DNA of 64,000 nucleotides from Lophium mytilinum. Its lineage: Eukaryota > Ascomycota > Dothideomycetes > Mytilinidiales > Mytilinidiaceae. Every line of letters starts with the position of its first letter. The first letter of the stretch is position 1. Shown piece after piece: positions 1,996-58,221 of this stretch. The notes beneath the pieces are model-generated. The model saw nothing but the letters and a program-made list of their open reading frames with translations. It was not told where the DNA came from and made no database searches. Location: contig MU004186.1 of NCBI GenBank assembly GCA_010093605.1, positions 327,765 to 391,764 of the forward strand, written 5' to 3'. The position numbers and the translations under genes were made by a program.

Positions 1996-3785
1996 TTACT
2001 CCCCCTTCAACACAACCGGCGGCGCCTCATAAACCCCCCTAACAACCACCCACACGACCCCAATCAGCAGCGTCAACCCGCCCGCAATCAAGCACGAATA
2101 GTTCATATCCTGCGCCGACACCGGATACACATACGGAAAGCAGTAAAACACCAACCACACCGCCATAAACGCGCACGACACGCCGCTAACCACGAAACCC
2201 GCGACGCCGCGCACGAAAAACGGCCCCGGCGGGACCGACTTGCGCCCGCTGAAGAGGAAGGGGAGCAGCGCGGCGAGGTAGGAGAGGGTGGTGAGGACGA
2301 CGAAGGAGCCGACGAAGGCTTCGAAGGCGATGGCGCTGCCGAGGTAGATGCAGCCCATGACCGTTGCTGGGGGTTTGTTAGCGGTGGAGAATTAGGGATT
2401 AGGAAAGGGAGGGGTGGGACGCACAGAAACATCCCATAAAGAGTACGGCAGCGAAGGGGTTCTTCCAGCGCGTGCTGACGTGGCTGAAGGTGCGGGGAAA
2501 GGGCATGGCGTTGTCGCGGGCCAGGCTCCAGAAGACGCGGCTGGCGGTGAGCATGGAGCCCATGACGCTGCCGAGGATGGGGACGAGAACGAGGACGGAG
2601 AGGCCGATGGCGCCGCTGGTGGAGCCGGTGGCTTGGTTGTAGATTTCGGAGAGGAGGAATTCGGAGGTGGAGCTGAGGACGGCGTCGAAGTCGGAGATGG
2701 CGTAGAAGAGGACGATGAGGTAGATGAGGGTTGTGAGGAAGCTGGAGGTCATTTGGATGAGCATGGCTTTGGGGATGTTTCTTTCGGGCCTGGTGGTGGA
2801 GTGTTAGTAGAGGAAATGGGAAGTGTTGCTGGTAAGGGGGGGGCGCGTACTTCTTGATTTCTTCGGCCATGTGGGTGGTGCAGTCGGGAGTGCCGATGGC
2901 AAAGCTTCCATTCAGCATACCTAATACAAAGACGAGGCCGTTCTTGGTGTAGCCGGTGTTGTTCTCCCATGTCTTCCAGACGAAGTCGCTGCTAGCATGC
3001 GAGCGACCCCCTTGCGCTGACATGACTCCAACTACGATGAGAGTGACGAACCACCCTCCGATCACGAGAACCATGAGCGCATAGTTGATGCTTGGTAAGA
3101 GCCTGTTTCCGAAAAGGAGAGTAAAACAGCAAAGCCAGATAATAATGATATAGGAGACGAAGATATGCCATCTTTGCGGTTCCAGTTCCGGATGGGTCAG
3201 GCTGTAAAGCCCAACTAGACCTTCGCTGCCTACGACTGCTAGAGACGAAGCTCCAAACGAGTATGCGAAAGCATTCCAGTAGCCGGCAAAGAATCCAATG
3301 ATACGGCCCATCTTACGGCCGGGTGTGACGGATGCCCAGTGGTAGACGCCTCCGGCAGTTGGGATCGCAGACGCCATTTCAGCGAGAGAGACCGTGATAA
3401 AGAGGTAGAGTATCCCTGCTACAATGAATTCGTAGATGAACCCCGGCGAGCCCCCGTTGTAGATAGCAAGTCGCTGCATTGTGTTAGAAAGATACTGTGG
3501 CTTTCAAGTGAGGTGTGTTACAATCGTTGCTCCAGTAATCGCCCAACAGTTGCCAATAACTATGGCAACTGCACACATACTGAACAAACTCTGGGCTGTA
3601 GTTAGCAAGATGGGCTAAAAAGAAGTTATCCTAGTAGTCCTTACAAAGTTACGATCCAATTCTTGCGCGTGTCCAGACGCGTTGATGGGAGTTCCATCGA
3701 CGATATCGACGACCTCGCCATTGGCGACGTCTGGGTAGAGACTTCCCTCTTTGACCTTGGTACCTTTCTCCTCGACGAAGGACAT
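1996..3785 (-). CDS. Amino acid/choline-type permease (APC superfamily)
   Basis: Five exons on the minus strand: 3785-3645, 3590-3522, 3473-2851, 2789-2425, 2366-1996, giving 522 residues. The introns are 49-61 bases with GT...AG ends, and all phases close. The N-terminal cytoplasmic tail is followed by RNFSLFSMCAVAIVIGN and then IYNGGSPGFIYEF, the diagnostic first-helix region of the fungal GABA permease/choline transporter (Hnm1-like) group. Next come AGGVYHWASVTPG and about 12 hydrophobic segments, and the C-terminus ends in -LKGE. By family it is a plasma-membrane importer of an amino acid, GABA or choline-like compound; the substrate cannot be read from sequence. It is the outermost gene of the putative catabolic cluster and lies upstream of the hydroxyacid dehydrogenase's 3' end. 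The last donor could also be GTTTCT six bases upstream; GTGCGT was preferred. Confidence 0.88.
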
Positions 3786-4234
3786 TCTGTGTACTGTCGA
3801 TGTTGGCCTCTACCGAGAGATTGGACGCGAGGAAGAACTTCTTGAAGGCTGTAGGATATGTGAAGTGGTTCAGATTAAGGTCTCCCATGACTCGATGTTG
3901 GAAAGGACCAATCAGGTCGTGTATAATGCCAGGCCTCGGAGATGGGCGTCGATGCGATTGCATCCACCTAGGTAGCGAGTGGCTTTAGAACATTGCGCTA
4001 GGCAATCAGTATCGCTCGCGTCAACTAATCGCGTTCATTATTGCCGGTGTCATATGATATAGATTTCATATGAAAGATAGGGAGAGGCATCAGGCTTGAA
4101 AGGTGTTTTGCGCACTTCATGATTGGAAATATTAGATCTGTTGGGGTAAATACAGGACGTGGCCGATGCAACAGCGTTTAGCAAGTATAGTTTAAACTCA
4201 CGCATACTTTAAAAGACGGGGTTAAAGATTCTCT
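3786..4234. other. Permease promoter region
   Basis: Roughly 450 bases between the permease start and the stop of the dehydrogenase, both on the minus strand. It should contain the permease promoter and 5' UTR. No further ORF or repeat is supported. Confidence 0.5.
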
Positions 4235-5304
4235 TCATACAACGATATGAGCTGCTGGTATCTTTCCCCCACAGAATCCCTCAACATTCTCCCCTACCAT
4301 CCGCTCCAGATTCTTCAACGTCGTGTCCGATACCCACGCCGTATGTGGCGACAGCGTTAAGTTCAAGTCTTTGGTGTCTTCTGTTGCGAGAGGGGATGTT
4401 TCAGGTCCTGCCGGCTCCGTAGCGTACACATCTACTGCTGCACCTGCGATCCACTTCTCTTTGAGTGCCTGCACCAACGCAGCCTCATCCATAATCCCAC
4501 CTCTTGAGACGTTGACAAGCACCGCCTGTGGTCTCATTATCTTCAACTCGGGGGTCGATATGAGGTTGATGGAATCTGGTGTTCGAGGTAAGATGAGGAC
4601 TAATACCGAACTCTGCTTGAGCACTTCTTCGAAAGCCGTGTAGCCCTCTCGTATTGTTTTCGCGCCGCGCCGGTCTGCTACTAGGACCTTCATACCCAGC
4701 ATGCGTGCTATGTTGCCTATTTTCTTACCTGCGTATGACCTCAGCAAGTGATCCAACTCATGTCGTGAGGTAGCCGTCACTTACCAATGAATCCATACCC
4801 AACCAACCCCATAACCTCCTCCTCACAAGTCAACGGCATCGTGCCCGTATTATCCTCCAACATGTTTATCAGCGTCCCTCTCCACGGCCATTCGTTCGCT
4901 CTTAGAGCCATATGGGTCTCCACGAGTTTCCTCCGCGCGGCAAAATACAGCCCAATTGCATGCTCACTTACAGAAGAGGCATTCGCGTTGACAGAATTGC
5001 AAACTCGGATCCCGCGCTTTCGGCATGCTTCCAGGTCTATTGTGTCGGTTCCCACGGCCATAACAGCGATGAACTGGAGATGCGGTGATACATCTTCGGA
5101 AAGAACCTCTGCGGGCAAAGCAATCGTGGTCGTGACTAGGATCGTAGCATCTTTTATGCGTTCTGCGACTTGAGCGGGCTGGGTTCGTGGGTAAGATATC
5201 AAGGTATGCGTGAGGCCATTTGGGAGCTTGAACTCAGGAATCGGACTGAAGACTGCTTCGAGGACAACGATGGTATGGTGGGTTATTGCTGTTGCGGAAC
5301 CCAT
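4235..5304 (-). CDS. D-isomer specific 2-hydroxyacid dehydrogenase
   Basis: Two exons, 5304-4785 and 4728-4235, encode 337 residues, the usual length for the family. The single intron has a GTAAGT donor. The NAD-binding Rossmann motif GLVGYGFIG spans the exon junction. The catalytic Arg-Glu-His triad is visible as R249 in NVSRGG, E278 in DVYATEP and H302 in LSPHTAWVS. The Arg-Glu spacing of 29 residues matches the family. The enzyme would interconvert a 2-oxoacid and a D-2-hydroxyacid with NAD(P)H in the cytosol; the exact substrate is unknown. It is divergent from the aldolase-like gene at 5712 with about 400 bases between starts, so the two are likely co-regulated. An alternative upstream, spliced ORF (see findings) precedes the chosen start. 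Confidence 0.9.
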
Positions 5305-5711
5305 TGCGAACTTGGTTTCGAGCTCGATTCTTCAAGGAAGTATTTGGGTCTCGTAGGAAAAGATTTGATATGGAATGTCTGTAGACAAAAAAATAATTGA
5401 AACGTTGAAACTCTGGAATACCTACCCCGGTCATCGGCCTCCCACCACCGACGGGAATCTGCCCCTCATATAGCTCTCGGAGATGGACGACATGCGCCCT
5501 ATGCTTATCGCACTCCACAATTGCGGGGACCGGCATCGAATGGTACGCTACCGAAATGCGCCCTGTTTCCCTTATTAAATGACACTGTGGGACACTTACG
5601 TCCCGTGCGTTGCGCTAAAAGACTATTTTCCTTTCTTCGTTTGCATCCTCATCGTCAAAATCTAATCTGCTTGGTAATTGTTGCAGCAATTTCATTGTAA
5701 TAATTCCAAAA
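5305..5711. promoter_or_regulatory. Shared divergent promoter, dehydrogenase / aldolase-like gene
   Basis: The 407 bases separate two outward-facing starts. The half nearest the dehydrogenase contains a short spliced ORF on the minus strand starting at 5536. The half nearest the aldolase gene is pyrimidine-rich, as in many fungal promoters. No operator is assigned. Confidence 0.45.
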
Positions 5712-6795
5712 ATGGCTCCATCCGCTGTCTCCCTTCCCCCGGCGCCATCGACAAAGGCAGCCCAAGAGGAGGCAGAGCGTACGAGTGGTGATCCTGCATT
5801 GGCGTTCATTCAAGATGAAGGAACTTCGCCGCCTGTATTCGAGGACAAGTACGAGGAGCGAAAGTACCTGAAGCATAGGCTCGCAATTGCGTTCCGCATC
5901 TTTGCGAGTTCTGGATTTGCAGACGGAGTAGCGGGGCATATTACGATGCGTGATCCATTGGATCCGACGAGCTTTTGGGTGAACCCGTTTGGTGAGTAAC
6001 TTTAGTGACACGTATGAGGAAGAAAGCAGGCGAGGTAGTTGGAAAACCCGAAATTGGCTGATATTCATCCAGGAATGCATTTCTCGCTCATCAGAGACGA
6101 AGATCTTATCCTCGTCAACCACGCCGGTGAAGTAATTGATGGAGGAAAGAACCTAAGGCTGAATTACGCGGCATATGCTATCCACGCCGAGATCCACAAG
6201 GCGAGACCGGACGTCACATTTGCTGCTCATTCACACAGCACTTACGGACGAGCGTTCTGCGCGACTGGTAAGCTTCTAACGATTGTCAAGACTGGAATGT
6301 TTGCTGATAAGCCTTCAGGCAGGACACTGGACCCACTAACTCAAGACGCCTGCGTCTTCTACAACGACCACGTGCTCTACGCGAACTTCGCCGGCGTGGT
6401 GTTAGCAGCTGAAGAGGGCAAGTCGATTGCGAAGGAACTGGGCTCTAAGAAAGCTGCACTTCTTGGGAACCATGGCCTTTTGACCGTCGGCCCGTCGATC
6501 GAGGCCGTAGTAGCGTGGTTCGTGCTTTTGGAGAAGTGCTGCGAGGTCCAACTGCTAGCGGATGCGAGCAGTGCAGGAAGCGGAAAGCCACTGGTGAAGA
6601 TTGGGGAGTCAGAAGCCCAAAATACATGGGAGGCGCTTGGAAAGCCGGCGACGGGTTACTGTAAGTCATCTAGGAGTTCAGTGATCGTTCAAAATACTAA
6701 AGGAAGTAGTCATGGGGCTGCCCCTTTTCCAAATAGCAGAGAAGAAGGAATTTGGAGAGAGCACGTTTTTGGGCAGGGGGTTAGAACCGCTGTAA
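5712..6795 (+). CDS. Class II aldolase/adducin domain protein
   Basis: Four exons, 5712-5991, 6073-6267, 6319-6660, 6710-6795, encode 300 residues and end at TAA 6793-6795. Around residues 70-100 the family signature appears as GFADGVAGHITMRDP, followed by WVNPFGMHFS. The zinc-ligand histidines are in AAHSHSTYGRAF, and a later one in LLGNHGLLTVG. Bacterial relatives include sugar-phosphate aldolases and, more relevant here, decarboxylases of ring carboxylates such as the pyridine dicarboxylate and dihydroxyphthalate decarboxylases. Given the oxygenases nearby, a decarboxylase or retro-aldol step in ring catabolism is plausible but unproven. The gene converges on the NmrA-like gene with only 40 bases between stops. 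The last, short exon was chosen because it restores the usual C-terminus (GYFMGLPLFQIAEKKEFG). Confidence 0.88.
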
Positions 6796-6835
6796 ACTGG
6801 CGCGATAGATGTTTCAATAAATCTGAGCTTTTCCC

Positions 6836-7917
6836 CTACATTTTGCCACTCCTGTAGCCTGGCGCATCATGTTCGATGGCCTGAGCGACCGCAATCTCGA
6901 GCGTATCACTGTCCGTGACACCAAGCTTTTCGTTGTCTCGCTTCTTGTATAAAGTACCTCCTTCAGTCCAGATTCTCCGCAAGGTGAAAAGGGTAGCAAT
7001 GGGATCTCCTTTGTCCCAGGCTTCCTTTTCTAATTGCTTCAACTTGTCTAGCGGTGTGTATGAAGCTTCCCATTTCTTCCCCGTTTGGCGCTCAAACTCG
7101 GCGAGGATTTGGTCGGGCGTGGCAGTGAATGAGTTCACTTTCAAAGCGCGATTGCGGGATACGTCTGGGTGCTTGAGGGCTCCGACGAGGAGTTTACCAA
7201 CGCTATCAGTCGTCAGCAATCGGCCAGCAACTACATAACAAAGACAGAGATAGCTCACTCGGACATGGTGACCAAAGATACCGGATCCTTTCCACTCCCT
7301 AACAGTACAGCCTTTTGCTCTTTGACGTTCCACGATCCTACGGGATTGCTGCCCATGTTTCCAAGGTACAGATCCGCATAGGGACCTGTGACCAAGTAAG
7401 TGTACTCTAGCCGTCTCACAGACTCCTTGATATAGGCCCGTACTTTCAGCTTCAGTTGATGAGGCTTCTCGTTGACGGAATGATCAAAGTATTCGATATC
7501 CGTTCCATACTCGCTGGGGAAGAATCGTATGATGTTCGGGGACTGCTCAGCGAGGCGAATCAAGTTGATTTGTTCTGCTATGACATTTCTGCCGACTGCG
7601 CTGACGACGGTGTTAAATCCTAGACTTTGTATCAATAAATGTCCGCAGGTGGCTTTGTAACGGAGAAGTGTTGTCATTTTATACATACCTTTGTATGCCT
7701 CTACCACATCCTCCTCATTCCTCACGTCTCCCACGATAATCTCAAGCCCATCCTCTCTGAGAGATTGAATGGAATCTGACTTAGTATTCACCGTATTTTG
7801 TGACGTGAAGATAGCTAAACGGCCGAAATCTTCCTTTGCTGCGAGCAGTGCATTGACGATATACTGCCCGATGACGCCGGTGCCCCCAAACACCAGGATG
7901 TCTAACTTTCCACTCAT
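6836..7917 (-). CDS. NmrA-like / isoflavone reductase-like NAD(P)-dependent enzyme
   Basis: Three exons, 7917-7689, 7619-7259 and 7202-6836, encode 318 residues. The start was placed at the ATG that gives [20 protein letters not shown], so the dinucleotide-binding GGTGVIG lies about 10 residues from the N-terminus, as in the family; an in-frame upstream extension is open but lacks family sequence. [10 protein letters not shown] and [10 protein letters not shown] match the NmrA/isoflavone-reductase-like (atypical SDR) group. Members either reduce aromatic or phenylpropanoid substrates or sense redox cofactors. With neighbours for ring oxidation, a reductase role is the likelier one. It is head to head with the LigB-type gene (473 bases between starts). 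Confidence 0.87.
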
Positions 7918-8390
7918 GTTGACAAAATCGAATGCCTTCTGAGGGTATACAATTGATACTTTGTTGAACACAGTTGCGATGCCGGCGGAGATGCCGGTCA
8001 CCACCGGCACGCCCTGCAGGAACCAGCACTCGTACACTCTGCCCCACTCTTGATGCCCCGCCATATTCTAAGTCGTGCTCAGAGTTAGGTAGGGGTTACT
8101 AGTGTCGGACATCCCCTATCGACATCCGCCCCTCATCGCAACAACGCGCTTTCTGCGAGCCATCGCGAAAAATGGTCTGGAGATGTTGCCGATGGATCAG
8201 GCGGTTTTCCTTATCAGGTTCGGCATGCGTGCGGAGTCAGAACAGTTCTAAGTAGAATAATTCAATATTCCATCTCTTCTTGGTTCCTGCGATATAATTG
8301 TCCTCTTAGTTGAGAAACATTTATTCCGTATCAACTTTATTGCACTTCCATACTCATATTCGTTACTCTTTAACATCATCGTATTTCATC
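7918..8390. promoter_or_regulatory. Shared divergent promoter, NmrA-like / LigB-type dioxygenase
   Basis: The 473 bases hold both 5' regions. A GATA-type site in reverse orientation (TTATCA, 8211-8216) is present, and several CGG triplets lie between 8140 and 8240 that could serve a Zn2Cys6 factor. These are pattern matches only. Confidence 0.4.
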
Positions 8391-9503
8391 ATGGGTAAAA
8401 TCGTAGCAGCTGTCGGCCTCTCTCACGCGCCAGGTGAGTCTATTCATCCTCAATCTTTTCCGTAGCTTGTAACCAAACTGACTTCGTACTGTCCAGGCGC
8501 GCTCGCCTTCCCCGAGACCGCCACCCCAGAAGCCCGCGAGCGCACCGAGAAAGCCACCAGAGACCTAGGCATTAGCCTAGAAGAAGCAAAACCCGACATC
8601 ATCTTCGCCTTCCTCGATGACCACTTCGAGAACTTCTACCGCAACCTCATGCCCACCATCGCCGTCAGCGTCGCCGAAAGCCACGTCGGCCCCGCAGACC
8701 AATGGATGGAAACCCTCCGCATACCCAAGAAAACACATTTCCCCGGCAACCCAAAAGTCGCGGAACACCTCATCCACTCGCTGGTGGAAGATGGGTTTGA
8801 TGTTGCGCGGACGGGGACGGTGGAGTACGGGAACAACCTCATGATGCCGTGGGTGCTCATGCGGCCGGAACTGGAGAACGTGGCGATCATTCCTATTTTT
8901 CTGAACGTGTTCACGCCGCCGTTGATGAAGTATTCGAGGGCGTATGCACTTGGCGAGGCGTGTCGGAAAGCGGCGTTGGCGCTGCCGGATGAAACGTGCG
9001 TTGCGTTCATGTGTACGGGTGGGTTGTCGCATTGGCCGCCGTACTGGAGCCCGACGCAGGCGGGCGATCCGCCCGCGGACCCCTTCCTTGCGCTGATGAA
9101 GAAGTTCCAGACGGAGGGCAAGCCGGTGTTGAAGGAGCATCCCGATCTGTTGGCTAGGTTGGACGATTATGAGATTGAGATGGCGAAGAATAATGAGTAT
9201 CCGCTGAACTCGAAACATCCGCTTGTTAATTGGGAGTGGGACCGAGGGTTCTTGGATAAGTTCTGTGCGGGGGATGGGAAGTGGTTGAGCGCGCTGACAT
9301 ATGAGGAGGTTGAGGAGGAGGCGGGACATGGAGGGCATGAAGTGCTGAACTGGGTGGCACTTTCTGGAGCTATGAACAGCAGTAAGGCGAAGATGGTGCT
9401 GTATGAGCCGGTCGTGGAGTGGATTTGTGGGATGGCTTATGTGGATTTCGAAATCGGAAAGGAGACTAACGGGGCGACGAATGGCAGTAACGGTACGCAC
9501 TGA
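8391..9503 (+). CDS. LigB-type extradiol aromatic ring-opening dioxygenase
   Basis: Two exons, 8391-8433 and 8497-9503, encode 349 residues. The short first exon MGKIVAAVGLSHAPG puts H12 in LSHAPG, the position of a ferrous-iron ligand in protocatechuate 4,5-dioxygenase beta (LigB). A second ligand fits H57 in LDDHFEN, and GLSHW (H193) matches the conserved catalytic histidine. WEWDRGFLDKF near residue 250 supplies an acidic ligand candidate. LigB-family enzymes use Fe(II) and O2 to cleave catechol-type rings beside the hydroxyls. The protein is single-chain, with no separate LigA-like subunit in the window. Its substrate would be a dihydroxylated ring, made perhaps by the FAD monooxygenase at 17128-18557. 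Gly/Asn/Thr-rich residues end the protein. Confidence 0.9.
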
Positions 9504-9666
9504 GTGCGATGTTCAGTCTTTTTGGACATGGTAGTCGAAAATAATTTTCCGTGGTTTACACAAGCTTTCTGTATCAAACTTCATGGCTCTGTCGATTTCT
9601 GTAGAGCAGTAGTTTTAAGCGTAAAATCATGTCGATGCTGATAGTCTACTCTTGTCGCCTCAGTCG

Positions 9667-11850
9667 TCAAAATACTAGTCCCAGATCATCTAAACGGAGG
9701 GTATGATCTAACAGCGCGGTACCGGGCGTCCCGTCGGCAACCTCCGCGTTCGCCCCCATATCAAAGAAGTCCTCGTCGATATCAAACAGGCTGAAATCGA
9801 AAGTCCCCAAATCTTCCACATGCCTGCTCCCGAATCTCAACTTATCAAGATGAGCAGGACCGGGATAAAGAAGCCGCATGAGCTCCGCATCTTGCGTGGA
9901 GTCTAAGCTAGTCTCCGGATTCGATACCGGAGAAAACACAAACGCCAAAAGCGGTCCAAGCATTCGTTCATAAACTCCGGCGTGGTTTGATACTTCAGAC
10001 CACCCTTGCGACGCAATGCTGAGGAAGTTCGTTGTGAATATCTTAGTCATGTCGAAGATCTGGCTTGGGTTGTATTTCTGCGTAATACTCGCCTGGCCGT
10101 GCCGGAGACAGAATAGCAGGACCATGGCTGTTTCTAGAGTATGATGCGCCGACATCCAAGGACGGCGGAAGAAGCCAGAGAGGATGTGCTCACGGTGGCT
10201 CCGAGCTGATAGCGCTGCGGCTTCGAAGGCGATCAAGAGGCTCCGCTGTGATGGCATTGGCGTCCTTCCGGACGGTCGGTGAAGCATCGTAAGACCCCGT
10301 GCTAATGCAAACTCTACGAGCTCGCTGTTGGTGGCTTCGGCCTTTGATTTGTCGTACCAGGCTTGAAGCTTTTTCTCCATATTTTGCAACCAATCGTCCC
10401 AGGACATTCCCACGGGCAAGGGTTGTCCTTGAAAATGGATCTGAATCATTTCAGATTGAAGTTGATGATAGTGAATTTGATCTAAGAAGGGCCTTGAGCT
10501 CAGTCCAGTGACACCATCATTCATGTAGGGGAACTGGGTGTTGATGGCGGCATCCGGAATAGAAAGCGGCCTCTGAAGAGCAGCACATACGCTGCGATCG
10601 ATACAATATGCACTCCAGAAGACGCTACGTCTAAGGTTTAAAGTTGTAGTATCCATGCCATGGGTTTCAGGAGACTCTCTATGCAATCCGAGCTCCTGGA
10701 GTCGAAGCGGTTAGCCCTTTGTACTTTACCTCTAGCTGAGATTGCTTGGGAAGAGGTTAAAAAGGACTCACTAATGCCGACCGCATAGCCGCACCTGATA
10801 ATATCCATACATTAGCTGAGCGAGGGTTTATTGTCGCATATAGCAGAATCAGAAGATTCATCTGAATCCCCGTGAAATCTGAGGAGGCATCCGGCTGACT
10901 AGGAAGATGGCGGATCCCTTCTTCGAAAAGCGAAGACGAGAGAGACATGCATCGCGACTCGTGCCCTCCTTTCGCGCTACCAAGCGTGACAGATATCGCT
11001 AAGATCAAGTAGATAACCAGAAATCCGTGGTCAGGCATGACCAAACAGTTCTGAGAGTCTTGTCTACTGATTTGCAGGAAGCTTAACACGTGCCTTAGCT
11101 GGTCCCAGATATCTGGCTCGTGCAGAAATGGAAACTGAGGGAGCACTCCCTGTACATACTTCTTGACTAGACTTTGGATGATCTCAATTGGAATGTTGCG
11201 CAAGACTCGCGTCTCAACGACCTGGGCTTGTACAGAGACTGCGTTTGGACTGACGCTATTTCTTTGCAGGTCGTTCACGTTCGTCACAGCCGTGCTCGAA
11301 GATGGAGTGAGGCCCATTCTTACTCTCGAGACTAGATCAGTCAAACCCGATCCGTAGGGCAGAGTAGCAGAAACCATAGATTGCAGCTCTCGACTATTCA
11401 TGATTGAGGAAGTTAAAGGATCCTGTGATGGAACCGGTTGAGGTTCCGCGATATCCAGGGCCCAACGAGGACTACTATCGACAACTGTGCCATTGAGCTG
11501 ATGTCCAGATGAGTCTTGATTGAATTGTAGTAAGATATCAGATGCGTTGAGGGCATCAAGATGACCTCCTTGGGCAAGCTCCGTCTCCAATCGCGCAATC
11601 TCATGCTCGAGGTGCCTTACGATGCTGCGAGGGACCTCGGTGGAAGAAACAGTCACGCTGAAGCCGGTACACGTGGTCTTTGCTCTCAAGCATGGAGTAC
11701 ATGCTGGGAGCTTACGATCACACTGCCTGGTGTTAGTGGGCAAAACTGGGACGCGTCGCGCGAATCTACGAAGAACAATGAACGCACCTTCGTCTTTCGC
11801 CTTCTGCATCTCCCACAGCTGAGCACACTCCTCGAACACTCGGTGGACAT
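9667..11850 (-). CDS. Zn2Cys6 transcription factor with fungal-specific domain (cluster regulator 1)
   Basis: Three exons, 11850-11788, 11722-10772, 10695-9667, encode 680 residues. The first intron interrupts the DNA-binding domain. With it removed the binuclear zinc cluster is perfect: SCGRCRRRKTK joined to CDRKLPACTPC and on to KTTC, i.e. C-x2-C-x6-C-x6-C-x2-C-x6-C. This decided both the start (ATG at 11850) and the acceptor. A short linker and a helix (IVRHLEHEIARLETEL) that may be a coiled-coil dimeriser follow. The middle-homology region includes LRRSVFWSAYCIDRSVCAAL. Such proteins bind CGG repeats in the nucleus and commonly control the genes around them. It is divergent from the M20 amidohydrolase gene, so autoregulation with that gene is possible. 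Confidence 0.9.
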
Positions 11851-12675
11851 TGTTTTTTACGGACTTCACCGCCATCAAGCCCTGCGCATCCATCATCGCG
11901 GAGAGGTAGGGAGAAGTACGAGGTGGAGTCTCGGGTCGCGCAAAACGGTCCGAAAGCTGCGGTGCCTGACTCAGGTCAATTGCAAGGCTTATCAGCAGCC
12001 CCGGCTTGACTCCCGATCGGCCCTTTTGTATGGATATGGAAAGGGGGCTAGAGCGCTGTTCTCCGACGACATTGTTCATTCCTCCATGTCACGCGTACCC
12101 TCTCCAATCTGGTCGTGTTGGAGAGGAAACGACGTGTCGAGACACCTCAACAGCGGCAAGGCAGTATGCACAGACTGCAATAGTAGAAAAAAACTACGTT
12201 GGTATATGATGGGAGCCAGATCATGCCGTGACACATGATAGGGCATCGAGATTATCATGAAGCGTTATATCATTACCCTCTTCACGCCAGTCTGATTCCA
12301 CTTGGTAAGCCTCAAAGACAGTATCGTCTCATTTTTACATTGCTCTCATTATGGTGGAATGCGAGTTCATTCACTTATACTCGTAATCGACGTCGCTCTA
12401 CAGCTTTGATGTCTAAAATGATGGACTAGCATCTACTTGTTGAGGGAGCGCTGCCGCAATTGGGTCTTCGTGTCTTTATGCAGGGTCTCCAACGGTACCG
12501 CTCTTCTCCGGGAGTGCCCTGGAGGCCTCGGTGCCACTCATAAAGGAATGAGGACTAGTCAAGCGGTTACGGTCATTCTCCGATCGCGGAGTGTCCATCT
12601 TTGCTATCCAGAAATACTCACTCACTCAAAATTTCGTTCTGAGATTCATTGTTCTCATCCTCTCATCATTTCATC
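11851..12675. promoter_or_regulatory. Divergent promoter, regulator 1 / M20 amidohydrolase
   Basis: About 825 bases between two outward-facing starts. A reverse GATA-type site (TTATCA, 12252-12257) is present. No RNA gene or extra protein gene is supported. Confidence 0.4.
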
Positions 12676-14449
12676 ATGGCTACCTATGAGGCCGTCGAAC
12701 GAACAGCTAGCATCCAACTACCAACTCTCTCTTCAAGGTATGAGCCTCTACAGACCAATGCCTTGCGTACAAATGCAACGCTAGAAGCAGCATGTGCTTG
12801 GGGGAAGTGAGTATATCATCTTTCAAGTCTAATATCTCTATTGACACCATGTCCAGTACTCCAGACGGCGGCATGAGTATGTCTCTTCCCCCTAAACCAG
12901 CCCCTCAAACCGTCATAAAATGACGGGCCATGAGTCTATGCCTACCCGGTCGCCACTGCTTGGACTACTCCAATGAGTCTCAAATTTCTGAACGCGATGT
13001 CAAGCTCCCAGCATTGCAATTAAGACTGCTCTTCGTTCACCGGCTATTGACTAGCTGAGCTCCTCCTCCCAGTAGCAGCCAGTGAGCAAAGTTGGAGCCA
13101 AGCAGTGACAACTCCATATGCCCAGACTCACGGCCGAGTACTGTAACCCAAACACTAACACTACAAAGACCGCCTCGCCTCCAACGACGACGACAAACGC
13201 GTCCGAGACTGGTTCATCGCCGAAACCTCCAAATTCGGCTGCCACCACAAGATCGACGCCATGGGCAACATCTTCGCCATCCGGCCCGGCCAAAACAACG
13301 CCCTCGCCCCCATCGGCCTCGGCTCCCATCTCGACACCCAGCCCACTGGCGGCAAATACGACGGCATCCTCGGCGTTATCTCCGCCATGGAAGTTCTCCA
13401 GACCATCCACGAGAACAAGATCACCACCTACGCGCCCCTCGCCGTCATCAATTGGACGAATGAGGAAGGCGCCCGCTTCCCGCCCGCGATGCTGTGCTCG
13501 GGTGTCTGGGGTGGGGCGTTCACGACGGAGTACGGGCACTCGCGGACGGATCCGGAGGGGCTGACGTTGAAGGAGGAATTAGAGCGGATTGGGTATCTGG
13601 GGGAGACGGAGTGTTCGTTTGAGAAGAATCCGTTGACGGCGCACTTTGAGGTGCATATTGAGCAAGGGCCGGTGCTGGATCAGGCGGAGGAGGCGGCGGC
13701 AGTGGTGAAGGGGGTGCAGTCGATTAGGTGGTACAATGTGGGCTTGGTGGGGAGGGAGGCGCATACGGGGACGACGCCGATGAATAGGAGGAGTGATGCG
13801 TTATTGGGTGCTGCGAAGATGATTGTAAGTGTACTGCGAGGGTGTTTGGAGGTGGTTGCTAATTGACGAGAATAGGTTGAAACCAACCGCTTCGTCACGG
13901 AAGGTGAAGTAGCTGCTCGAGGTGGCCGTGCCACGATCGCTGTGATCAACTCGTCGCCGCAGAGCATTAACACTATTGCCGGCCATGTGGATTTCGGACT
14001 CGACATCCGAGCACCTGCAGATTCCGACGTCGAGCTCATTGAGGCAATGTGCCGTAAAAGGTTCGCGGAAATTTGCGACGAAATCGGCCTCGAAATGACA
14101 TTCGACAACTTCTGGGTCTCACCCGCGGTGAACTTTGATCCTACGATGATCGAGTGCGTGAGGAGTTCTGCGCGAGAGATTGGATGCACGACGGAGCTGG
14201 TGAGTGGCGCAGGACATGACAGTGTCTACACGAACAAGAAGGTGCCGACTGCTATGATCTTCGTGCGTTGTCGCGACGGTATTAGCCACAATCCGGCTGA
14301 GTACACGAGACCGGAGGAGTAAGCCATTCTATTCCTACTTTGAAAACACTTGCTAACACTTAAAAAGTTGCGCTGCCGGTGCTCAGGTGCTTCTGGGTGC
14401 GTATTTGCGATATGATGATTATCTCAGGAGAGCAGCGGCAAAAATGTAG
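12676..14449 (+). CDS. M20-family amidohydrolase (N-carbamoyl-amino acid / ureido hydrolase type)
   Basis: Five exons, 12676-12806, 12857-12876, 13169-13824, 13876-14318, 14368-14449, encode 443 residues. The 20-base second exon is needed to build CAWGNTPDGGMNRLA, the usual family N-terminus; intron 2 is unusually long (292 bases). Metal-binding residues are H104 and D106 in GSHLDTQPTGGKYDG, E149/E150 in NEEGARF, and His in HIEQGP; GAGHDS lies near the C-terminal part. This is the hydantoinase/carbamoylase branch of M20, which contains N-carbamoyl-L-amino acid hydrolase, beta-ureidopropionase and allantoate amidohydrolase. It would split a ureido or similar C-N bond, releasing ammonia and CO2 or an amine. 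Being convergent with the NCS1 permease gene, it links the cluster to nitrogen-containing substrates. Confidence 0.9.
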
Positions 14450-14680
14450 AGCTATAGATATCACAGTTTCCGTAGCATGGTTGGGGGCCGCGGGTTGATA
14501 ATTATTATCGTGTATTTACTTACAATCAGTCTTTGCATCTTGAAATGGAAAGCTGTGTCAATATGGGGGCATTGAGATAAGAGTAAAGTCATGAAGGAAT
14601 TGTCACTCATTAAAGCGTATGCGCTAATGTGCTCTATGATTTGCTGAAGCTATGTTTAACATCTTTAGTATCTCAATAAT

Positions 14681-16347
14681 CTAACGTCCAATAAACTTCA
14701 ACTCTAGGAAGCGCAGCGGAGCGTATACTATAGCTGCCCAGGACATAGCGAGTGGGATTCCCAACTACATAAAGTTAGCTGAGAGAAATCAACTCTCGTG
14801 AGTGCAAACTTACATCAGCGCCATTACCAACGAGTTTTGCGATGGGACCAGTGTAGTAAGTCTGGTACATTCCCATCACAGCACCTACCCATCCCACACC
14901 GAAGCCGACGAAAGCAGCATAGCCTATAGGCAAAGCCGACTTTACATTCCAGTGGGACCAGTCATAGCCGGACTTGCGACGGAAAATCAGTTGCTCTTCA
15001 ATAGTCATAGCGACCTGTGATAAGTGTCAAAACATGGCATTGGTTGAATAATAATGCGGATGGAACCCACCCAGCCCACAGTCCAATACCCAATAATACT
15101 CAAGAAGTTGATGAAGATCGAGAATAAATGATCACGGCCACCAATTGCGCAGGCAAGATATATGATGACTGTGACTGTGCTCCAGATCGGTTGCGGAACC
15201 TTAGCGAACCACCGTCCAAACATTTGCCAATTGAGAGCAGCCGCGTAGGTTCCCGGGATATTGTTTGCCGTAACGCAGATAGCGAGGATAACGGCGCAGA
15301 ACTTGCCAAAGTTGCCTAGAGGAGCGAAGGCTTCGACGATGAGGGCGCCAACGCCATGGCTTGAGAAAGCAGCAGCGAAGTCCGGGTTGGTCGTGAGTCC
15401 GCTGCCGAGACCGATGCCTAGAAACTCGATGAATAGCTTACCAAACACCATTCCGCATGTTGTCATTGCGAAGACGAGGTATTTGTTGGTCTGAGGTGGG
15501 TAATAAGAGTAGTAGTCGGCTGCTGCGGAGGTCCATCCAAGGGGCCCGGAAGCAGTGAGGAAGAAATAACTCAATCGGTTGCCAGCAAGAACTGCGCCAG
15601 AGCCAGCACTTGATGTGGTGATGTCGAACTTAGGGCCAGCAACGCCGATGAGGATGAACAGTGATATGACAGTTGGTGCCCAGACGTAGCTAAGGAGATC
15701 AGCTTAGCTCCAGAGTTTCACAACATTCGGGAAGCGTGCTCACCTTTCGAACTTATGGAACCACCTGATACCAAAGGTTGCGACAACCCAAGAAATGAGG
15801 GCGCAGACAACAATGCCAGTGATCACAGACATGCCGTGGCCATTGACTGCGCTCAGAATAAGACCTCCAACCAAGCAATCAATGACTCCATAGCCAAGCT
15901 CAATAACTAGATTGAGTAGAACGCAAAGCTTTGAAGGCCACCATCCCATGGTATACTTAGCAATGATCAGTGTTCGCAAGCCTGATTGAGGTCCGAAAGA
16001 AGAGAGGTATCCAGAACACATAGCACCAAATATCGTTCCGAACATGCAACATCTGATCTTCTATCAGCTCAGGCAACATCCTATGTTTGGTCAAATACTC
16101 ACAGAATGGAATCCGTAAAGCCCAATCCATAAGCTACCGGGCCCAATATCCCTAAAGTCATCTGGTTCGCGGTGCAGTTGATCGAAAACCACATGACAAA
16201 CATGTGGACGTAATCGCCAGTCACCACCTTCCTCGCTCGCAGCTCCTCGGGAATTCTTGTGATACCTTGACTCTCGACACCCAAAGCTTTATCAAGTCGA
16301 CCTGCCCACCGTTGGAGTTTGTTCTGTTGAGCAAGGGGATCGCCCAT
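14681..16347 (-). CDS. NCS1 permease, Fcy-like purine-cytosine/N-base transporter
   Basis: Exons 16347-16103, 16052-15744, 15689-15071, 15014-14814 and 14764-14681 encode at least 485 residues ending ELKFIGR. Family marks are the N-terminal RIPEELRARK then MWFSINCTANQMTLG in helix 1, FGTIFGAMCSGY in helix 2, and ASGPLGWTSAAADYYSYYP. About 12 membrane segments are visible. Fcy-type NCS1 carriers import cytosine, purines, or vitamin-like N-heterocycles by proton symport at the plasma membrane. The start is uncertain: the frame stays open upstream to about 16527 without an ATG, so a short 5' exon may exist; ATG 16347 is the minimal start. Five GATA-type sites lie upstream (16521-16669), which suggests nitrogen control. 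Confidence 0.88.
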
Positions 16348-17127: not shown

Positions 17128-18557
17128 CTATACCACTTTTGTTACTTGTGGGATAGAACTTGCCGTAGAGACTTTCGAGTCATCCGATGCGTCAACAGCA
17201 CTCAATCTACTTGAAAGCTCCGCTAGAAGGTCGTACTCCATCACCCACCGCATACGTTCTGCTACAGCCCCTGGCGAAAACTTCTGACTCCAAAGTTCTT
17301 CTGGAATATCTGCACTCGCTAGCTTCCCCGTCTCGTAGCTAGTCTTCGTGATCTTATCCGTTCGCGGCTTTCGAAGATCTTGGAAAAATTGAAAGGCACT
17401 TTCTGTGTCTGCTGATTGCCAATTGCTCATGACTTGTGCCAGTGCAAATCCGGATTCGATTGCCATACAAGCTCCTTGACCTAAATGCTGTTAGCGAACG
17501 TCGCGTGCACATACTACGTTGTGAAAAAGGATCCTACCTTGATGTGGAAGAGTCGAGTGAACAGAATCACCAATTAAGATTATGCCAGATTTCTGCGAGC
17601 TTTGCGCTGAGTACCACTTAGGCGTCGGGTCTCGAACATATAAAGTCTGTTTCAGGATTTTGCCATCCTCTGCTCCTTTTCGTAGGCCATGTATGATCTC
17701 TTGGACTGCTGGACTCCAGTCCTTGACGTGTTCGTAAAGATCGTCAACAGGCGCTTTCGCCAGCCAACTCTCGGATGTCCAGCCTTGGAGGGGCTCGGTC
17801 ATGAATCCGATTATACCAACTCGGTCAGTTTTAGATTCTTCATTTCCAATAGGCAGGGTGAGAACATGTCGCTGCGGTCCTCGGAAATTGACCGTTTTCC
17901 GTAAGAGATCGGCGGTTTCCGGAGTCAAGTCATCGTAGGCAACGTAGCCACGATACACCATTTGGCCGGAGTAAATGGGCTCATCGGTGAAGCCAAGATG
18001 CTGTCGCACTTTGGATTTGATTCCGTCGCAACCTACGACGATATCTGCTTTGGATTCCGTTCCATCTTGAAATTTGATCGTGTAACAGTCATCTGCCTCG
18101 TTGCGTTCAATGGCTACTAGCCGCTTCCCCTTGCTTATCTTTGAGTCAGGAACGTTCTTCTTCAGGACCTCTATCAAATGTGCGCGATGAATCTGCCGCG
18201 ATCGAGGCTCGCCAAACTCATCAATCTGTCCCAGGAACTCTCCAGTTCGGTAATGTCGGTACTCCATGTAACTCGGCGGGTCATGAGAGGACTTCCAAAG
18301 CATGTCATCCTTCAAGCCAAAAGCGTCGAGAACACGATTGGCATTGCGAGTGATATTGACACCTGTGAAAGGTTAGTAAAAGTTGTTGAGATTTCGTTGC
18401 CTGACTCTAGAAACTTACCAGCTCCAACTTCGGTGAACTCAGGCGCGGCCTCGTAAAGGTGCACATTTTCTAAGCCAGCATATAGAGCCGAGTTCATGAA
18501 GGCCATTCCTCCAATGCCGCCCCCAATTACCGCTATCCTCTGCCCTCGGAGAGCCAT
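17128..18557 (-). CDS. FAD-dependent monooxygenase (salicylate hydroxylase-like)
   Basis: Three exons, 18557-18419, 18362-17538, 17480-17128, encode 438 residues, normal for class A flavoprotein hydroxylases. The N-terminal ADP-binding motif is IAVIGGGIGGMAF; the second motif VVGCDGIKSKVR (DG motif) and the third LIGDSVHSTLPHQGQGACMA (GD motif) are all intact. These enzymes use NAD(P)H and O2 to hydroxylate aromatic rings, often with loss of a carboxylate; relatives act on salicylate, 6-hydroxynicotinate, kynurenine or urate. In this cluster it could prepare the diol for the LigB-type dioxygenase. The gene is head to head with regulator 2 (357 bases between starts). The usual acidic residue after the third motif is Ser here (IESG), a small deviation. 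Confidence 0.9.
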
Positions 18558-18914
18558 GGCGTGAACGTATTGGTGACAAGAGCGGTGATTTCGAAGGCAC
18601 TTTCGTCGTCAATGTAGGTAAATGTACACCTTTGACGCGCCTGTCGATGGGATTTGATGTGGACATATTGGCTATTGTATGATAGTGATGGAACAGGTCC
18701 TCTTTCAGATGGGCCAGTGGTGTGAGGGCTGAAGCGCTCATCGCCGACGCGACGCTTTTCGGAGAGAAGTGTGCGGGGCGAGAAACGACACCAACTTTCG
18801 ACATGACTCGTGAGAGGCCGGAGGATATCCGACCACCGCATCGCCCCCGCCGCCCTTTCATCAGTCTCACCGTTGTTCTCCGATACAGCTGCTTCGCAGT
18901 CCCCTCGTACATGG
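18558..18914. promoter_or_regulatory. Divergent promoter, FAD monooxygenase / regulator 2
   Basis: The 357 bases separate two outward-facing start codons. An in-frame ATG at 18810 would extend regulator 2 by 35 residues, so part of this stretch may be coding. No operator is assigned. Confidence 0.4.
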
Positions 18915-20921
18915 ATGTCGACGTCAAGAGAGCTTATTCAGCAGCTGCTTTCGACCTGCCAGAGATGTAGGCGATTGAGGAGAAAATGCGATACGCTATT
19001 ACCAGACTGCAGACTGTGCCGCAAGGTCTGTACCCCCCTTAATGGCCATGACTATAGACTGACTTCTTTGCCAAAGGCTGGTGTAGAGTGCTATCATTTT
19101 GACCACGCGCTACAGCAATCGCTACCGCGAGCGTAAGCACCACTTATGCCTCTCATCTCTCGTTTTAACCCATAGTGCAGATATGTTCATTCTCTCCTTG
19201 CCCGTTTAGAGCATCTCGAGGCTGTGAAACGCACCGCTGAAGGACCTTCTGATCAGCAGGATGTCCCACTCCCTGTGCTGCCTGATACTCCATTATCAGA
19301 CAATCTCTTTCCCCATGCATCTCCGTTCCAAACCTCTCCGGTGGTTATTCGAGAACATGCTCCCGATAGCGTCGAGTATTACTCATACTTGAAGAACGAC
19401 CAGATAGACACGTTCGATAAACATTTCATCATACCGTCAGCCGCTGGGAGATCGCGTTTCTTCGGTGCAAGCTCCGTATTTACTATCTCTGTCGAACTCT
19501 ACCATCATGCGATAACCACTGGTCTCCTTCCAGAAGGATCTTTGAGTCTCCCCGTATCACGAGACAATGATGAGATGGAGCCTGTAGAGCCTGTGGCTCT
19601 ACACTTCAACCACCAAGCTCAAGCTGAATCCGTCAGGGAATTGTGCAGATTCTATTTTGTTACCTCGAACGTTTTGTATGGATTCGTGGACGAACATCTG
19701 GCAGCGAATGACATCCAGGCGTATCTTGACCTCAAAGATAATCCCCGTCTGAATCCGCAAGATCTACGAGGCATGGAAGCGCATCAGTACTTCAGGGTGA
19801 GCATGATGTGTGCTATTTCATGCTCCACCCAGGCTCGACATCGACACAAACGGCTTGTAGAGGGTATGGAGTACTACCAAAACGCCCTAGATTGTGTCGA
19901 GGAAGTCACCTCAGAAGTGACCCCATCATCTTTGCAGGCCCTGTTGCTTCTTGCTATCTTCTGCCTCTTCCACCCCCGGAAGGGTGACATCTGGAAATTG
20001 CTTGATTACGCGTGTAGGCTCAGCGTAGAACTGGGTTATCATACCGAGCAGCAAGTGGAACTAGAAACCGAGGCACAGAAAAGGCTGCGTCGGTCGACAT
20101 TTTGGGGTCTCTATGCAATTGAACGAATCGTTGGCCAGCTCTTTGGGCGTGGCTCTGACCTCCCCGAACCTATCATTACGACCGAATATCCGCGCAGCCT
20201 TTCCGCTATCGACAGCATGGATCAAGCCTCTGTACAGCCGATATCGATCGCACATCATTATCGACTGGTTTATCTACGGTCTGAAATATTCCGGGATCTT
20301 TACATGCCCGCAAACCCTCCTCAGTTCGAATTCGACTGGTATCGCGATCGTTTCAGTACGCTTCACCTTTGGCGACAAGAACATCTAGTTTCAGACGATG
20401 ACTTAGCAGGACCCGGAACTATTAGCTGTGACGTTGGCTATAATTCCACGATTTGCTTTTTATTCCAGCCACTGCTGCTTGTCGCGCTTCGGACCACAGC
20501 AACGAAACACGATGGCTCGTCGGTAGACTTGAAAGCTATACCACAGGATAATTACTGGTCAGCTTGCGCATTGATTCGAGCATACGAAAAGGTTATTCGC
20601 GCTCCGGAGAAATCAGTACTAGGCGCGTATCCAATGACGTTCCTCTCTGCACATTACATCTATCTTGCCGGTGTCACATTGATGGCTCATGCTCTACTTG
20701 CAATCGACGGCAGAGTGCCGGTCTTAAAGCCAATGTTGCAGCTTAGAGAGACACCAGAAATTGGCTCACTAGATTTCACCACTCTCTACGAGATCTCAAA
20801 CTCTTGCCTAGTATTGCTTTGTTTTTGCGCGGAAAGATGGACGGGAATGGAAGGGATGCAATATGCATTCAAGAAGCTTGCCGATAAAGTCATTCCTGCA
20901 CTTCTCAGAAGACAGCCTTGA
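18915..20921 (+). CDS. Zn2Cys6 transcription factor with fungal-specific domain (cluster regulator 2)
   Basis: Three exons, 18915-19025, 19077-19132, 19181-20921, encode 635 residues. Splicing of intron 1 completes the zinc cluster: CQRCRRLRRKCD, then PDCRLCRK joined to AGVEC, giving C-x2-C-x6-C-x6-C-x2-C-x6-C. HSLLARLEHLEAV follows as a short coiled coil. The fungal transcription factor domain is visible as LSVELGYHTEQ then RRSTFWGLYAIERIVGQLFG. An ATG at 18810 in frame is an alternative start. It is a second pathway regulator candidate next to both oxygenase genes. Its stop lies only 12 bases from the stop of the converging 2-oxoglutarate oxygenase gene, so the 3' ends must overlap in transcripts. 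Confidence 0.9.
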
Positions 20922-20933
20922 CGACGTGATAGC

Positions 20934-22118
20934 TCAATACGTGGCTGTGAGCCGGTTTACCATCCATTCGCCTGGATATATCGGCGAATACTTTTTCGGC
21001 CTCTGCTCATCGAAGCAAGTTTCAATAGTGTTAACCAGGCGGTCGTGGTCTGGATGTGCGAAGTACTACGTCGGCTTTGTAAGTTTCTCGGCATCGATCG
21101 TAACAGCATAGCAGAACTTACTGCGATAGAGTAACGCGCAGAGAACGATCCATCATCCGTGGTCGGCGCGCTGGGTGGCGACACAACTCGGTGGTTTGTT
21201 GATTTGATAACATCATTGGTCCATATTTGCAACATGTCCCCTGGTACTCATGTTTAGCAAGGCATCCCATTGCTTGCAATGGAAGCTCATCACCTGAGTT
21301 TATCACAACCGCTCCTTCGATTGGCTCGACATCTTGCCACTCTCCCTCTGGTGTCCGCACTTGTAATCCACCACTCATGTCCTGGAACAGCAACGTAACC
21401 GTTCCATAGTCGGTGTGCGATCCTGCACGGACAGTGCCAGGTTGCTCTAAAACCTGTTTTGATACAACGGGATAGTGCAAAAGCCGTAGAACATGATCAC
21501 CAGCAGTAACGTATTGCTTGAAAAAGTCTCTGTCGAGTCCCAACCCCTCGGCCACCGCACAAAGGAGCTCATGATGTAGCTCATCGCAGCTCTCGTAGAA
21601 TGCCCGCATCGCCTCGCCAAAGTCAGGGAGCTCAGTATCTGGGTAATGATTTTTCCATGGCTTCGCTGGATAACGACCTGCATCACTTCCGATCTCCAAG
21701 GATTCTTTAAGGTCTGGCACTGCGGCACGCAGCTTCGCAATCGAGGCTTCGTCTTTGCTGTCCAAATCAAGGTTGGTTACTTTTTCGACGCCCATGCCAG
21801 AATATCCCCGATTTGCTTCCTTGTTGACATTCGGATGCTTGTCTTTGACAGATTTTGGGAGAGCAAAGTATTGTCTACTCCATTCGAATGCATTAGCTGG
21901 AGAGAGGCCGCTGTTCGTGAGGTAGAGGAATCCCGAGGTGGTGAAGCCGCTAATGATCTCCGAGACGCAGGCGGCCTTTTCTTCCAATGTGCCGTGGAGG
22001 TATTTGGAGAAGTCTATGAGTGGAATTTGAAAAGACGACTTTTGGTAGCTATGTCAGTTAAGCTTTTTCTCGAGTCACAGCCTACGCAACCTCATACCTT
22101 GGCTTCGAGTTTAGTCAT
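20934..22118 (-). CDS. 2-oxoglutarate/Fe(II)-dependent oxygenase (isopenicillin N synthase family)
   Basis: Four exons, 22118-22098, 22038-21294, 21240-21122, 21065-20934, encode 338 residues. The tiny first exon (MTKLEAK) joins SSFQIPLIDFSKYL, the classic N-terminus of the family. The iron triad is H215 and D217 in GSHTDYGTVTLLFQD and H272 in KSTNHRVVSP; R291 in ARYSIA binds the 2-oxoglutarate carboxylate. The last exon gives YFAHPDHDRLVN and ends -LTATY. The family hydroxylates or oxidises small molecules; fungal members include thymine 7-hydroxylase-like enzymes and the HxnY enzyme of nicotinate catabolism. Here it is a likely pathway hydroxylase of unknown substrate. Splice sites all close in frame. 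Confidence 0.9.
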
Positions 22119-58083: not shown

Positions 58084-58221
58084 CCTTTACTAGTATATAC
58101 TAAATATATATAGTATATATTAATAGCGCGCCGTCTAAATAGTAGTATTAGTATAAGGCCCTTATTCTTCTCTATATAGTGCTAGTACTAGTACTATATA
58201 GAGAAGAAGAATAAGATAGAT

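Follow-up and report, generated by a model that had tools for sequence, protein, structure and literature searches.

Can a fungus open a nitrogen ring by extradiol (meta) cleavage, in the manner of the bacteria that degrade pyridones? The question is raised by a 64,000-nucleotide stretch of Lophium mytilinum DNA (contig MU004186.1, C6 327765-391764, hereafter the window; the genome comprises 43.2 Mb in 24 contigs), where eleven contiguous genes, g1 to g11, occupy about 1.9-22.1 kb and one of them, g5, encodes a LigB-family dioxygenase. The gene families, their motifs, the membership of g5 in the group of bacterial PydA enzymes and a short site shared by three promoter regions are direct results of our calculations. 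We think it moderately probable that the cluster encodes an inducible fungal pathway, which imports a compound of the 4-pyridone or hydroxypyridine type and degrades it as nitrogen or carbon source via 3,4-dihydroxypyridine (3-hydroxy-4-pyridone).

The predicted ring-opening dioxygenase

The candidate ring opener is located as follows.

8391..9503, plus strand: g5, class III extradiol dioxygenase (LigB) of the PydA (NF009913/PRK13373) group, 349 amino acids (aa), one intron

On the NCBIfam model NF009913 (putative dioxygenase) g5 scores 426 bits, under the cut-off of 462, and two bacterial proteins from PydA contexts likewise stay below this cut-off with 432 and 421 bits. The second-best model, 3-carboxyethylcatechol dioxygenase, reaches 130 bits, and the gallate and protocatechuate models are outscored by about 330-350 bits. 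In the alignment, the identity of g5 is 43.4-53.9% to 18 PydA-type rows from bacteria and 47.8% to the second copy in the locus L011; it is 24.0-32.4% to six other LigB-family rows (two annotated as 3-carboxyethylcatechol dioxygenase, one as protocatechuate dioxygenase, the rest unnamed), 29.4% to L024, and 16.7-18.3% to the two LigB copies of the 3,4-dihydroxyphenylalanine (DOPA) type in the same genome. A maximum-likelihood tree of 29 rows, in which long outgroup branches may be misplaced and the root and deep order are unsure, places g5 within the PydA-type rows as the sister of L015 with support 98/97; L020 was excluded, as its match exceeds the open frame in length.

The single residues can be compared as well. 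There are 68 residues of g5 invariant across the 18 bacterial rows, and the six outgroup rows lack 12 of these throughout. H57 and H193 correspond in the alignment to H61 and H195 of 1b4u, so that the LigB histidines are kept, and all 18 bacterial rows share H12, H57, E240 and H193 with g5. We take His12, His61, Glu242 and His195 of 1b4u to be the metal and acid-base residues of LigB, and E240 of g5 is assumed to be the Glu ligand. The blocks DDHFENH and EWICGM have served as conserved primer motifs for PydA (PMC3637104); g5 carries EWICGM exactly and the former as DDHFENF, with the last residue differing, while the bacterial PydA-type rows have DDHFENH in 18/18 and an exact EWICGM in 7/18. 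Altogether the comparison places g5 among the PydA enzymes of bacteria (3-hydroxy-4-pyridone dioxygenase), with cleavage of 3,4-dihydroxypyridine as the predicted activity.

These figures bear on a carbocyclic meta-cleavage pathway, in which the flavin adenine dinucleotide (FAD) monooxygenase g9 of the cluster would make a catechol and g5 would open it, with the M20 hydrolase (g7) and the NCS1 permease (g8) serving an unrelated side group. The solved LigB-family enzymes do cleave catechols, protocatechuate or gallate, g5 aligns with its LigB histidines kept, and g9 resembles salicylate hydroxylase; yet an identity of 24-32% to the six non-PydA rows stands against 43-54% to the PydA types, NF009913 keeps its lead over the gallate and protocatechuate models, and two separate LigB genes of the DOPA type are present in this genome. 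Such a pathway is improbable in our view, and gallate, protocatechuate, dihydroxyphenylpropionate and DOPA were set aside as substrates of g5 on the subgroup scores and the identities.

The fungal DOPA-type dioxygenases (CDO3/EpCDO3, PMC8896014) share the class III LigB family with g5, but their type is DOPA, and g5 is only 17-18% identical to the copies of its own genome. We examined 20 kb around each of the four paralogous LigB loci, two of which are of the DOPA type with fumarylacetoacetate hydrolase (FAH) genes near, and found no relatives of the other cluster genes there (phmmer, E<=1e-4), FAH hits only. The DOPA-type genes at C2:658607-661074 and C12:1706154-1712095 (L025-L028), each with a FAH gene in the vicinity (at about 1 kb and 5 kb, respectively), give a hint of further fungal meta-cleavage gene pairs.

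The gene set of the cluster

Gene models were made with codon usage and splice-site modelling per gene, three gene ends being corrected by hand, and the protein families were assigned by Pfam and NCBIfam scans of the spliced models. All eleven genes are open after splicing, which bears out the eleven adjacent genes of named families in the initial annotation; their short GT-AG introns and the Zn2Cys6 regulators are fungal traits. The families of its gene models stood, while the end of the 2-oxoglutarate (2OG) oxygenase gene was corrected to 20934, and the regulators g6 and g10 gained complete Cys6 motifs once an intron was placed inside the motif (37.4 and 35.5 bits, cut-off 21). Besides g5 the cluster consists of the following genes, with Pfam matches in brackets.

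1933..3785, minus strand: g1, APC-family amino acid/amine permease (AA_permease_2); short end exons approximate
4235..5304, minus strand: g2, D-2-hydroxyacid dehydrogenase (2-Hacid_dh), one intron
5712..6857, plus strand: g3, class II aldolase/adducin-type metal enzyme (Aldolase_II), NF004855/PRK06208
6836..7917, minus strand: g4, NmrA / isoflavone-reductase-like NAD(P) protein (NmrA); an in-frame ATG upstream at 8064 is possible
9667..11850, minus strand: g6, Zn2Cys6 regulator, 680 aa, with complete Zn cluster (Zn_clus, Fungal_trans)
13159..14449, plus strand: g7, M20 hydantoinase/carbamoylase-type amidohydrolase (Peptidase_M20); the start is that of the open frame
14681..16347, minus strand: g8, NCS1 permease (Transp_cyt_pur), four introns
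17128..18557, minus strand: g9, group A FAD monooxygenase (FAD_binding_3)
18915..20921, plus strand: g10, Zn2Cys6 regulator, 635 aa, with complete Zn cluster (Zn_clus, Fungal_trans)
20934..22118, minus strand: g11, 2OG-Fe(II) oxygenase (DIOX_N, 2OG-FeII_Oxy), 338 aa, three introns

The genes are tightly packed, as the 3' ends of g3 and g4 overlap by 22 bp and the ends of g10 and g11 are 12 bp apart. Upstream of the open frame of g7 there are several frames with stops, and its coordinates do not include the first exon(s).

As for the enzymes around g5, the best solved relatives of g9 are salicylate hydroxylase (148 bits), tropone 2-monooxygenase and 6-hydroxynicotinate 3-monooxygenase, and the nearest solved protein of g11 is thymine dioxygenase/7-hydroxylase (5c3o/5c3p) with 255 bits. 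For g3 the score on NF004855/PRK06208 is 309 bits, above the cut-off of 255; its best solved match is 4xxf (225.7 bits), followed by NovR (named a decarboxylase) and others including TqaM, and His-x-His and NHG motifs were read by eye. The M20 protein g7 matches carbamoylase-type enzymes along its known length, and the subfamily names (allantoate amidohydrolase, beta-alanine synthase and others) fail to separate its possible substrates. Among the permeases, g1 has TIGR00907 as nearest NCBIfam model (304 bits, below the cut-off of 598), and a search of solved structures returned nothing for g8 at E<=1. None of the eleven genes is of the FAH family (PF01557), for which the 13 matches listed in the genome are all on other contigs.

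Two other readings of this gene set have to be considered here. In a biosynthetic (secondary metabolite) cluster, g5, g9 and g11 would tailor a product, and the structure searches in fact name the fungal relatives TropB (g9), TropC and TraH (g11) and TqaM (g3), all of which presumably come from secondary metabolite clusters; but not one of the eleven proteins is a backbone synthase in the Pfam scan, and two importer-type permeases together with an M20 hydrolase suit catabolism better, so that we hold such a cluster to be very improbable. A purine, hydantoin or allantoin (ureido) route, built from the FAD monooxygenase, M20 and NCS1 genes, was rejected: on g9 the NCBIfam model of the urate hydroxylase HpxO (137.8 bits) falls below the salicylate model (181.6 bits), both being under their cut-offs, and g5 is left unexplained. 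The ureido ring, which the initial annotation had offered beside an aromatic N-heterocycle, was given up; its support was limited to the M20 family name, and an N-formyl amide as cleavage product explains an M20 enzyme equally well.

Comparison with bacterial and fungal systems

Among 72,556 plasmid records, the best tblastn matches of g5 are in Novosphingobium resinovorum (51%) and in five rhizobial plasmids (47-48%), the latter from Leucaena, Phaseolus, Desmanthus, Acaciella and Vachellia. Leucaena is a producer of mimosine. The locus from its rhizobium (L005) has the order dioxygenase, alpha/beta hydrolase, ABC transporter, FAH hydrolase, RidA, pyruvate carboxylase, second transporter and PatB-type C-S lyase, and the alpha/beta hydrolase, FAH and RidA genes stand beside the dioxygenase in L005, L007 and L008. 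Such a content fits a locus in which PydA, PydB and others degrade mimosine and 3-hydroxy-4-pyridone (PMC7356986).

A scan of prokaryote genomes with a three-row alignment, which proceeds by short patterns and therefore yields a lower bound, returned at least 16 loci, 15 of them with 48-73% identity to the query from Novosphingobium and a single distant one with 23%. The 15 close loci and four plasmid loci constitute the 19 PydA-type loci used below. According to a phmmer screen, a FAH-like gene is present in 16/19, RidA in 16/19, a PydB-like hydrolase in 11/19 and a strong FAD monooxygenase in 3/19, counts which are not independent, as there are rhizobial near-copies, loci cut by contig ends, and reference queries from three of the same loci. 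Greedy picking of open reading frames (ORFs) in these GC-rich loci moreover yields false ORFs, 9/20 stretches having no Pfam match at E<=1e-10. The hydrolase family varies among the loci, for example Amidase in L018 and Amidohydro_1 in L017, and therefore an M20 enzyme as a substitute is plausible in the fungus. The locus L015, whose PydA-type protein is the tree sister of g5, includes genes for a Rieske oxygenase and an alpha/beta hydrolase. In the reverse direction, only three fungal proteins match the 19 loci, namely g5 (19 loci), g9 (5 loci, 32-141 bits) and g2 (1 locus, 44 bits).

Two further observations concern these bacteria. Five mycobacterial loci (L016, L017, L019, L021, L022) hold FAH, PydA-type and RidA genes together, with the Amidohydro_1 gene adjoining in L017, which looks like a pyridone locus in actinobacteria. 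In Zavarzinia marina a second PydA-type gene (L011 20159-20986) lies about 9 kb from the first and is cut by the locus end.

With the pyd/mid system of the Leucaena rhizobia, the fungal cluster shares a ring opener of the same LigB subgroup, as well as transport genes and a hydrolase beside it. The strain in the literature is TAL1145, and the identities of g5, about 47-49%, were measured here against the proteins of L005, L007 and L008. The bacterial loci differ in having ABC transporters, an alpha/beta hydrolase, a FAH hydrolase and RidA, with the C-S lyase in L005, whereas in the fungus the permeases are of the NCS1 and APC families and the oxygenases of the 2OG and FAD types, accompanied by M20, class II aldolase and D-2-hydroxyacid dehydrogenase.

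The kpi locus of Arthrobacter sp. IN13, which serves 4-hydroxypyridine, is described with a FAD monooxygenase, an NCS1-type permease, a ring opener, an N-formyl hydrolase and two regulators (PMC7356986), where KpiP of the NCS1 family is the proposed importer of 4-hydroxypyridine. Like the fungal cluster with g9, g8 and g5, it thus unites a FAD_binding_3 monooxygenase, an NCS1-type permease and a ring opener; each has two regulators. In the place of KpiB, the alpha/beta hydrolase of kpi, the fungus has an M20 amidohydrolase as candidate N-formyl hydrolase, and kpi has the FAH-family KpiD where the fungus lacks a PF01557 gene (same source).

The hxn cluster of Aspergillus nidulans offers a fungal comparison, in which the ring is opened hydrolytically by a cyclic imidase (PMC9304392) and a molybdenum nicotinate hydroxylase, HxnS, and a Cys2His2 regulator, HxnR, take part (PMC5746545). 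The likeness consists in a fungal pyridine catabolism with a FAD monooxygenase and a 2OG oxygenase resembling thymine 7-hydroxylase; this is HxnY, which is closest to thymine dioxygenase and thought to act on a pyridine derivative, with no step assigned in the available text of PMC9304392. A molybdenum hydroxylase of the HxnS type, a Cys2His2 regulator of the HxnR type and a cyclic imidase are absent from the eleven proteins in the Pfam and NCBIfam scans. The cluster is therefore not hxn. By sequence family it resembles pyd and kpi and is neither, with a ring opener of the pyd type, a permease and a monooxygenase of the kpi type and a hydrolase set of its own, in agreement with the earlier impression that the set differs from hxn and from the known bacterial sets. 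The N-heterocycle proposed at the outset is retained, given the PydA group of g5 and the kpi parallel in FAD monooxygenase, NCS1 permease and candidate amide hydrolase, and with somewhat better than even confidence we sharpen it to a pathway of the 3,4-dihydroxypyridine (3-hydroxy-4-pyridone) type.

A site shared by promoter regions

A 10-base word, TCGGAGAACA, is common to 3/7 promoter regions of the cluster (4,249 bp), where 100 resampled sets average 0.01 such words; it came from one of five word-length settings, the other four giving none, and is thus a site found by search. Its three sites are the only exact copies in the window and extend to the 13-base TCGGAGAACANCG.

12054..12066, minus strand: candidate regulatory site TCGGAGAACAGCG, between the divergent genes g6 and g7, about 204 bp before the ATG of g6
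18871..18883, minus strand: candidate regulatory site TCGGAGAACAACG, about 314 bp before the ATG of g9 and 32 bp before that of g10
22283..22295, minus strand: candidate regulatory site TCGGAGAACACCG, about 165 bp before the ATG of g11

The sites before g6, g9 and g11 are all in the orientation of the gene. In the whole genome (43 Mb) TCGGAGAACANCG has 14 copies, three of which fall here within 10.3 kb, and the backwards control pattern has 5 copies. The shared site supports a putative co-regulation of at least g6, g9/g10 and g11. CGG/CCG spacings of the Zn2Cys6 type showed nothing beyond chance in 48 tests (lowest resampled fraction 0.07, among the ten lowest listed). A further copy of TCGGAGAACANCG at C6:316256 is situated about 1 kb upstream of a 981-aa frame (C6:312263-315205, L039 4499-7441), which is NLR-like with NPHP3_N and ankyrin repeats.

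The presence of the site at 3/7 promoter regions, along with several genes that have no assigned step, would also suit neighbours without one common pathway, co-regulated for a subset only (e.g. g6, g9, g10 and g11 near the site). Against this stand eleven adjacent genes of catabolic type including two permeases and two regulators, the very short convergent spacing and the unrelated genes left of the cluster, and we give this reading quite a low probability.

Proposed pathway

In bacteria, 4-hydroxypyridine is converted through 3,4-dihydroxypyridine, 3-(N-formyl)-formiminopyruvate and 3-formylpyruvate to pyruvate and formate (PMC7356986), a source in which the product of ring cleavage is given a postulated structure. 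By analogy each step of this scheme but the last can be given a candidate from the fungal cluster; the reactions, the entry substrate and the induction are what we infer. The compound would be imported by g8, perhaps together with g1, and g11, an oxygenase of the thymine-7-hydroxylase type, would remove a ring substituent if one is present. Hydroxylation to the 3,4-diol is ascribed to g9, possibly with loss of an ortho carboxyl as in salicylate and 6-hydroxynicotinate hydroxylases. Then g5 would cleave C2-C3 with O2 to 3-(N-formyl)-formiminopyruvate, and g7 may hydrolyse the N-formyl amide, giving formate, and ammonium after loss of the imine, so that 3-formylpyruvate remains. The C4 oxo-acid might be processed by g2 and g3 in place of the bacterial FAH-type hydrolase, for which our guess is reduction of the 2-oxo group and a splitting of the aldol or decarboxylase type; FAH genes elsewhere in the genome could also replace g2 and g3 at this last step. 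The genes would be switched on by g6 and/or g10 via the shared TCGGAGAACANCG site. Because g11 and g9 fit the removal of substituents before cleavage, the natural substrate may be larger than 4-hydroxypyridine.

A more substituted 3-hydroxypyridine, e.g. a vitamin B6 catabolite, would make another scheme, where g11 oxidises a ring methyl, g9 turns the 4-carboxyl into a hydroxyl, g3 decarboxylates, g5 opens the substituted 3,4-diol and the M20 enzyme removes the N-acyl group. The yeast pyridoxine transporter is one of the NCS1 proteins; the closest relatives of g9, salicylate and 6-hydroxynicotinate hydroxylases, exchange a carboxyl for a hydroxyl; and g3 matches, beside the decarboxylase-named NovR, weakly also Mlr6791 (2z7b), which we take to be the pyridine-dicarboxylate decarboxylase of B6 breakdown. 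Moreover, thymine 7-hydroxylase, the closest relative of g11, converts a ring methyl to a carboxyl (PMC9304392). However, the match of g3 to 2z7b is only 57.7 bits vs 225.7 for 4xxf, and g9 scores about 72 bits with 2-methyl-3-hydroxypyridine-5-carboxylate oxygenase, half its score with salicylate hydroxylase. To our knowledge no PydA homologue has been shown to act on B6 compounds, no search aimed at this having been made, and we judge this scheme unlikely.

Several points weigh against the 3,4-dihydroxypyridine pathway. The activity of the PydA reference is itself deduced from genetics, because the dioxygenases of TAL1145 and NCIB 10413 were unpurified as of 2013 (PMC3637104), and the ring opener of kpi, KpiC, is of the amidohydrolase-1 family, about 20% identical to PydA and unrelated to g5 (PMC7356986). 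The fungal M20, class II aldolase, 2OG, NCS1, NmrA and APC proteins have zero matches in the 19 bacterial loci at E<=1e-8; conversely, FAH, RidA and PydB-like hydrolase genes, found in 16, 16 and 11 of the 19, are missing among the eleven fungal genes, although these neighbours are context and not a property of the g5 enzyme. NCS1 genes occur in 7/12 bacterial records searched, and the two that could be placed (G008, G009) are more than 200 kb from PydA; NCS1 is no marked neighbour of bacterial PydA genes. The score of g9 with PydA-linked monooxygenases, 128-141 bits, is no closer than that with salicylate hydroxylase (148). Furthermore, g11, g4 and g1 have no secure step and the roles of g2 and g3 are guesses. 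Finally TCGGAGAACANCG, itself found by search, is in only 3/7 promoter regions, and those of g1, g2/g3, g4/g5 and g8 have nothing with fewer than 3 mismatches to it.

With these points included, we see about an even chance that the cluster represents a eukaryotic extradiol (meta) opening of the pyridine ring by a PydA-type fungal dioxygenase within a set specific to fungi, in which M20, class II aldolase and D-2-hydroxyacid dehydrogenase replace the bacterial hydrolases and the natural substrate could be mimosine or another pyridone from plants, or a compound of the vitamin B6 type.

Genomic surroundings

On the left flank, g1 is followed by an ORF without Pfam match and then by clathrin adaptor and frataxin genes; on the right flank the next ORF is without Pfam match. 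An M20 paralogue, 55% identical to g7, is located about 7 kb left of the window (C6:319563-320787), and extension of the cluster to it was rejected because the clathrin adaptor and frataxin genes intervene. Genome-wide searches for relatives of the LigB family, g2, g3, g7, g9 and g11 list the best candidates, and among these matches the relatives are scattered across many contigs and no second locus has relatives of at least three of the six within 20 kb. Relatives of the 2OG oxygenase and the class II aldolase are about 16 kb apart at C11:1236662-1253405.

About 19 kb left of the cluster, with other genes between, is a formate/nitrite transporter gene (C6:309795-310872, L039 2031-3108); the proposed pathway would release formate. 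Elsewhere in the window, a cytochrome P450-like ORF with a weak partial Pfam match (27 bits) is found at 36717-37925 on the minus strand, and at 28504-29171 a 171-bp unit is repeated in tandem (about 3.9 copies, 76% match, normal GC). From 48000 to 64000 an AT-rich block with GC 27-34% and many short tandem repeats lies beside the gene-rich part, and its signature of repeat-induced point mutation is strong (TpA/ApT about 1.8; (CpA+TpG)/(ApC+GpT) 0.1-0.3).

Implications

Extradiol pathways are little known in fungi. According to the available part of PMC10512348 (2021), only intradiol cleavage had been described in fungi, the available text of PMC9304392 mentions the extradiol enzyme for prokaryotes only, and the worked-out fungal pyridine pathway, hxn, opens its ring hydrolytically (PMC9304392). 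A literature search over titles and abstracts, with few subscription journals, gave no report that we recognised as a fungal pyridone dioxygenase, the literature found under this name being bacterial. If the pathway proposed here is true, Lophium mytilinum would break down a nitrogen ring by a fungal meta-cleavage route, a function would be assigned to a fungal LigB gene that is not of the DOPA type, and the use or detoxification of plant pyridones by fungi would become directly testable.

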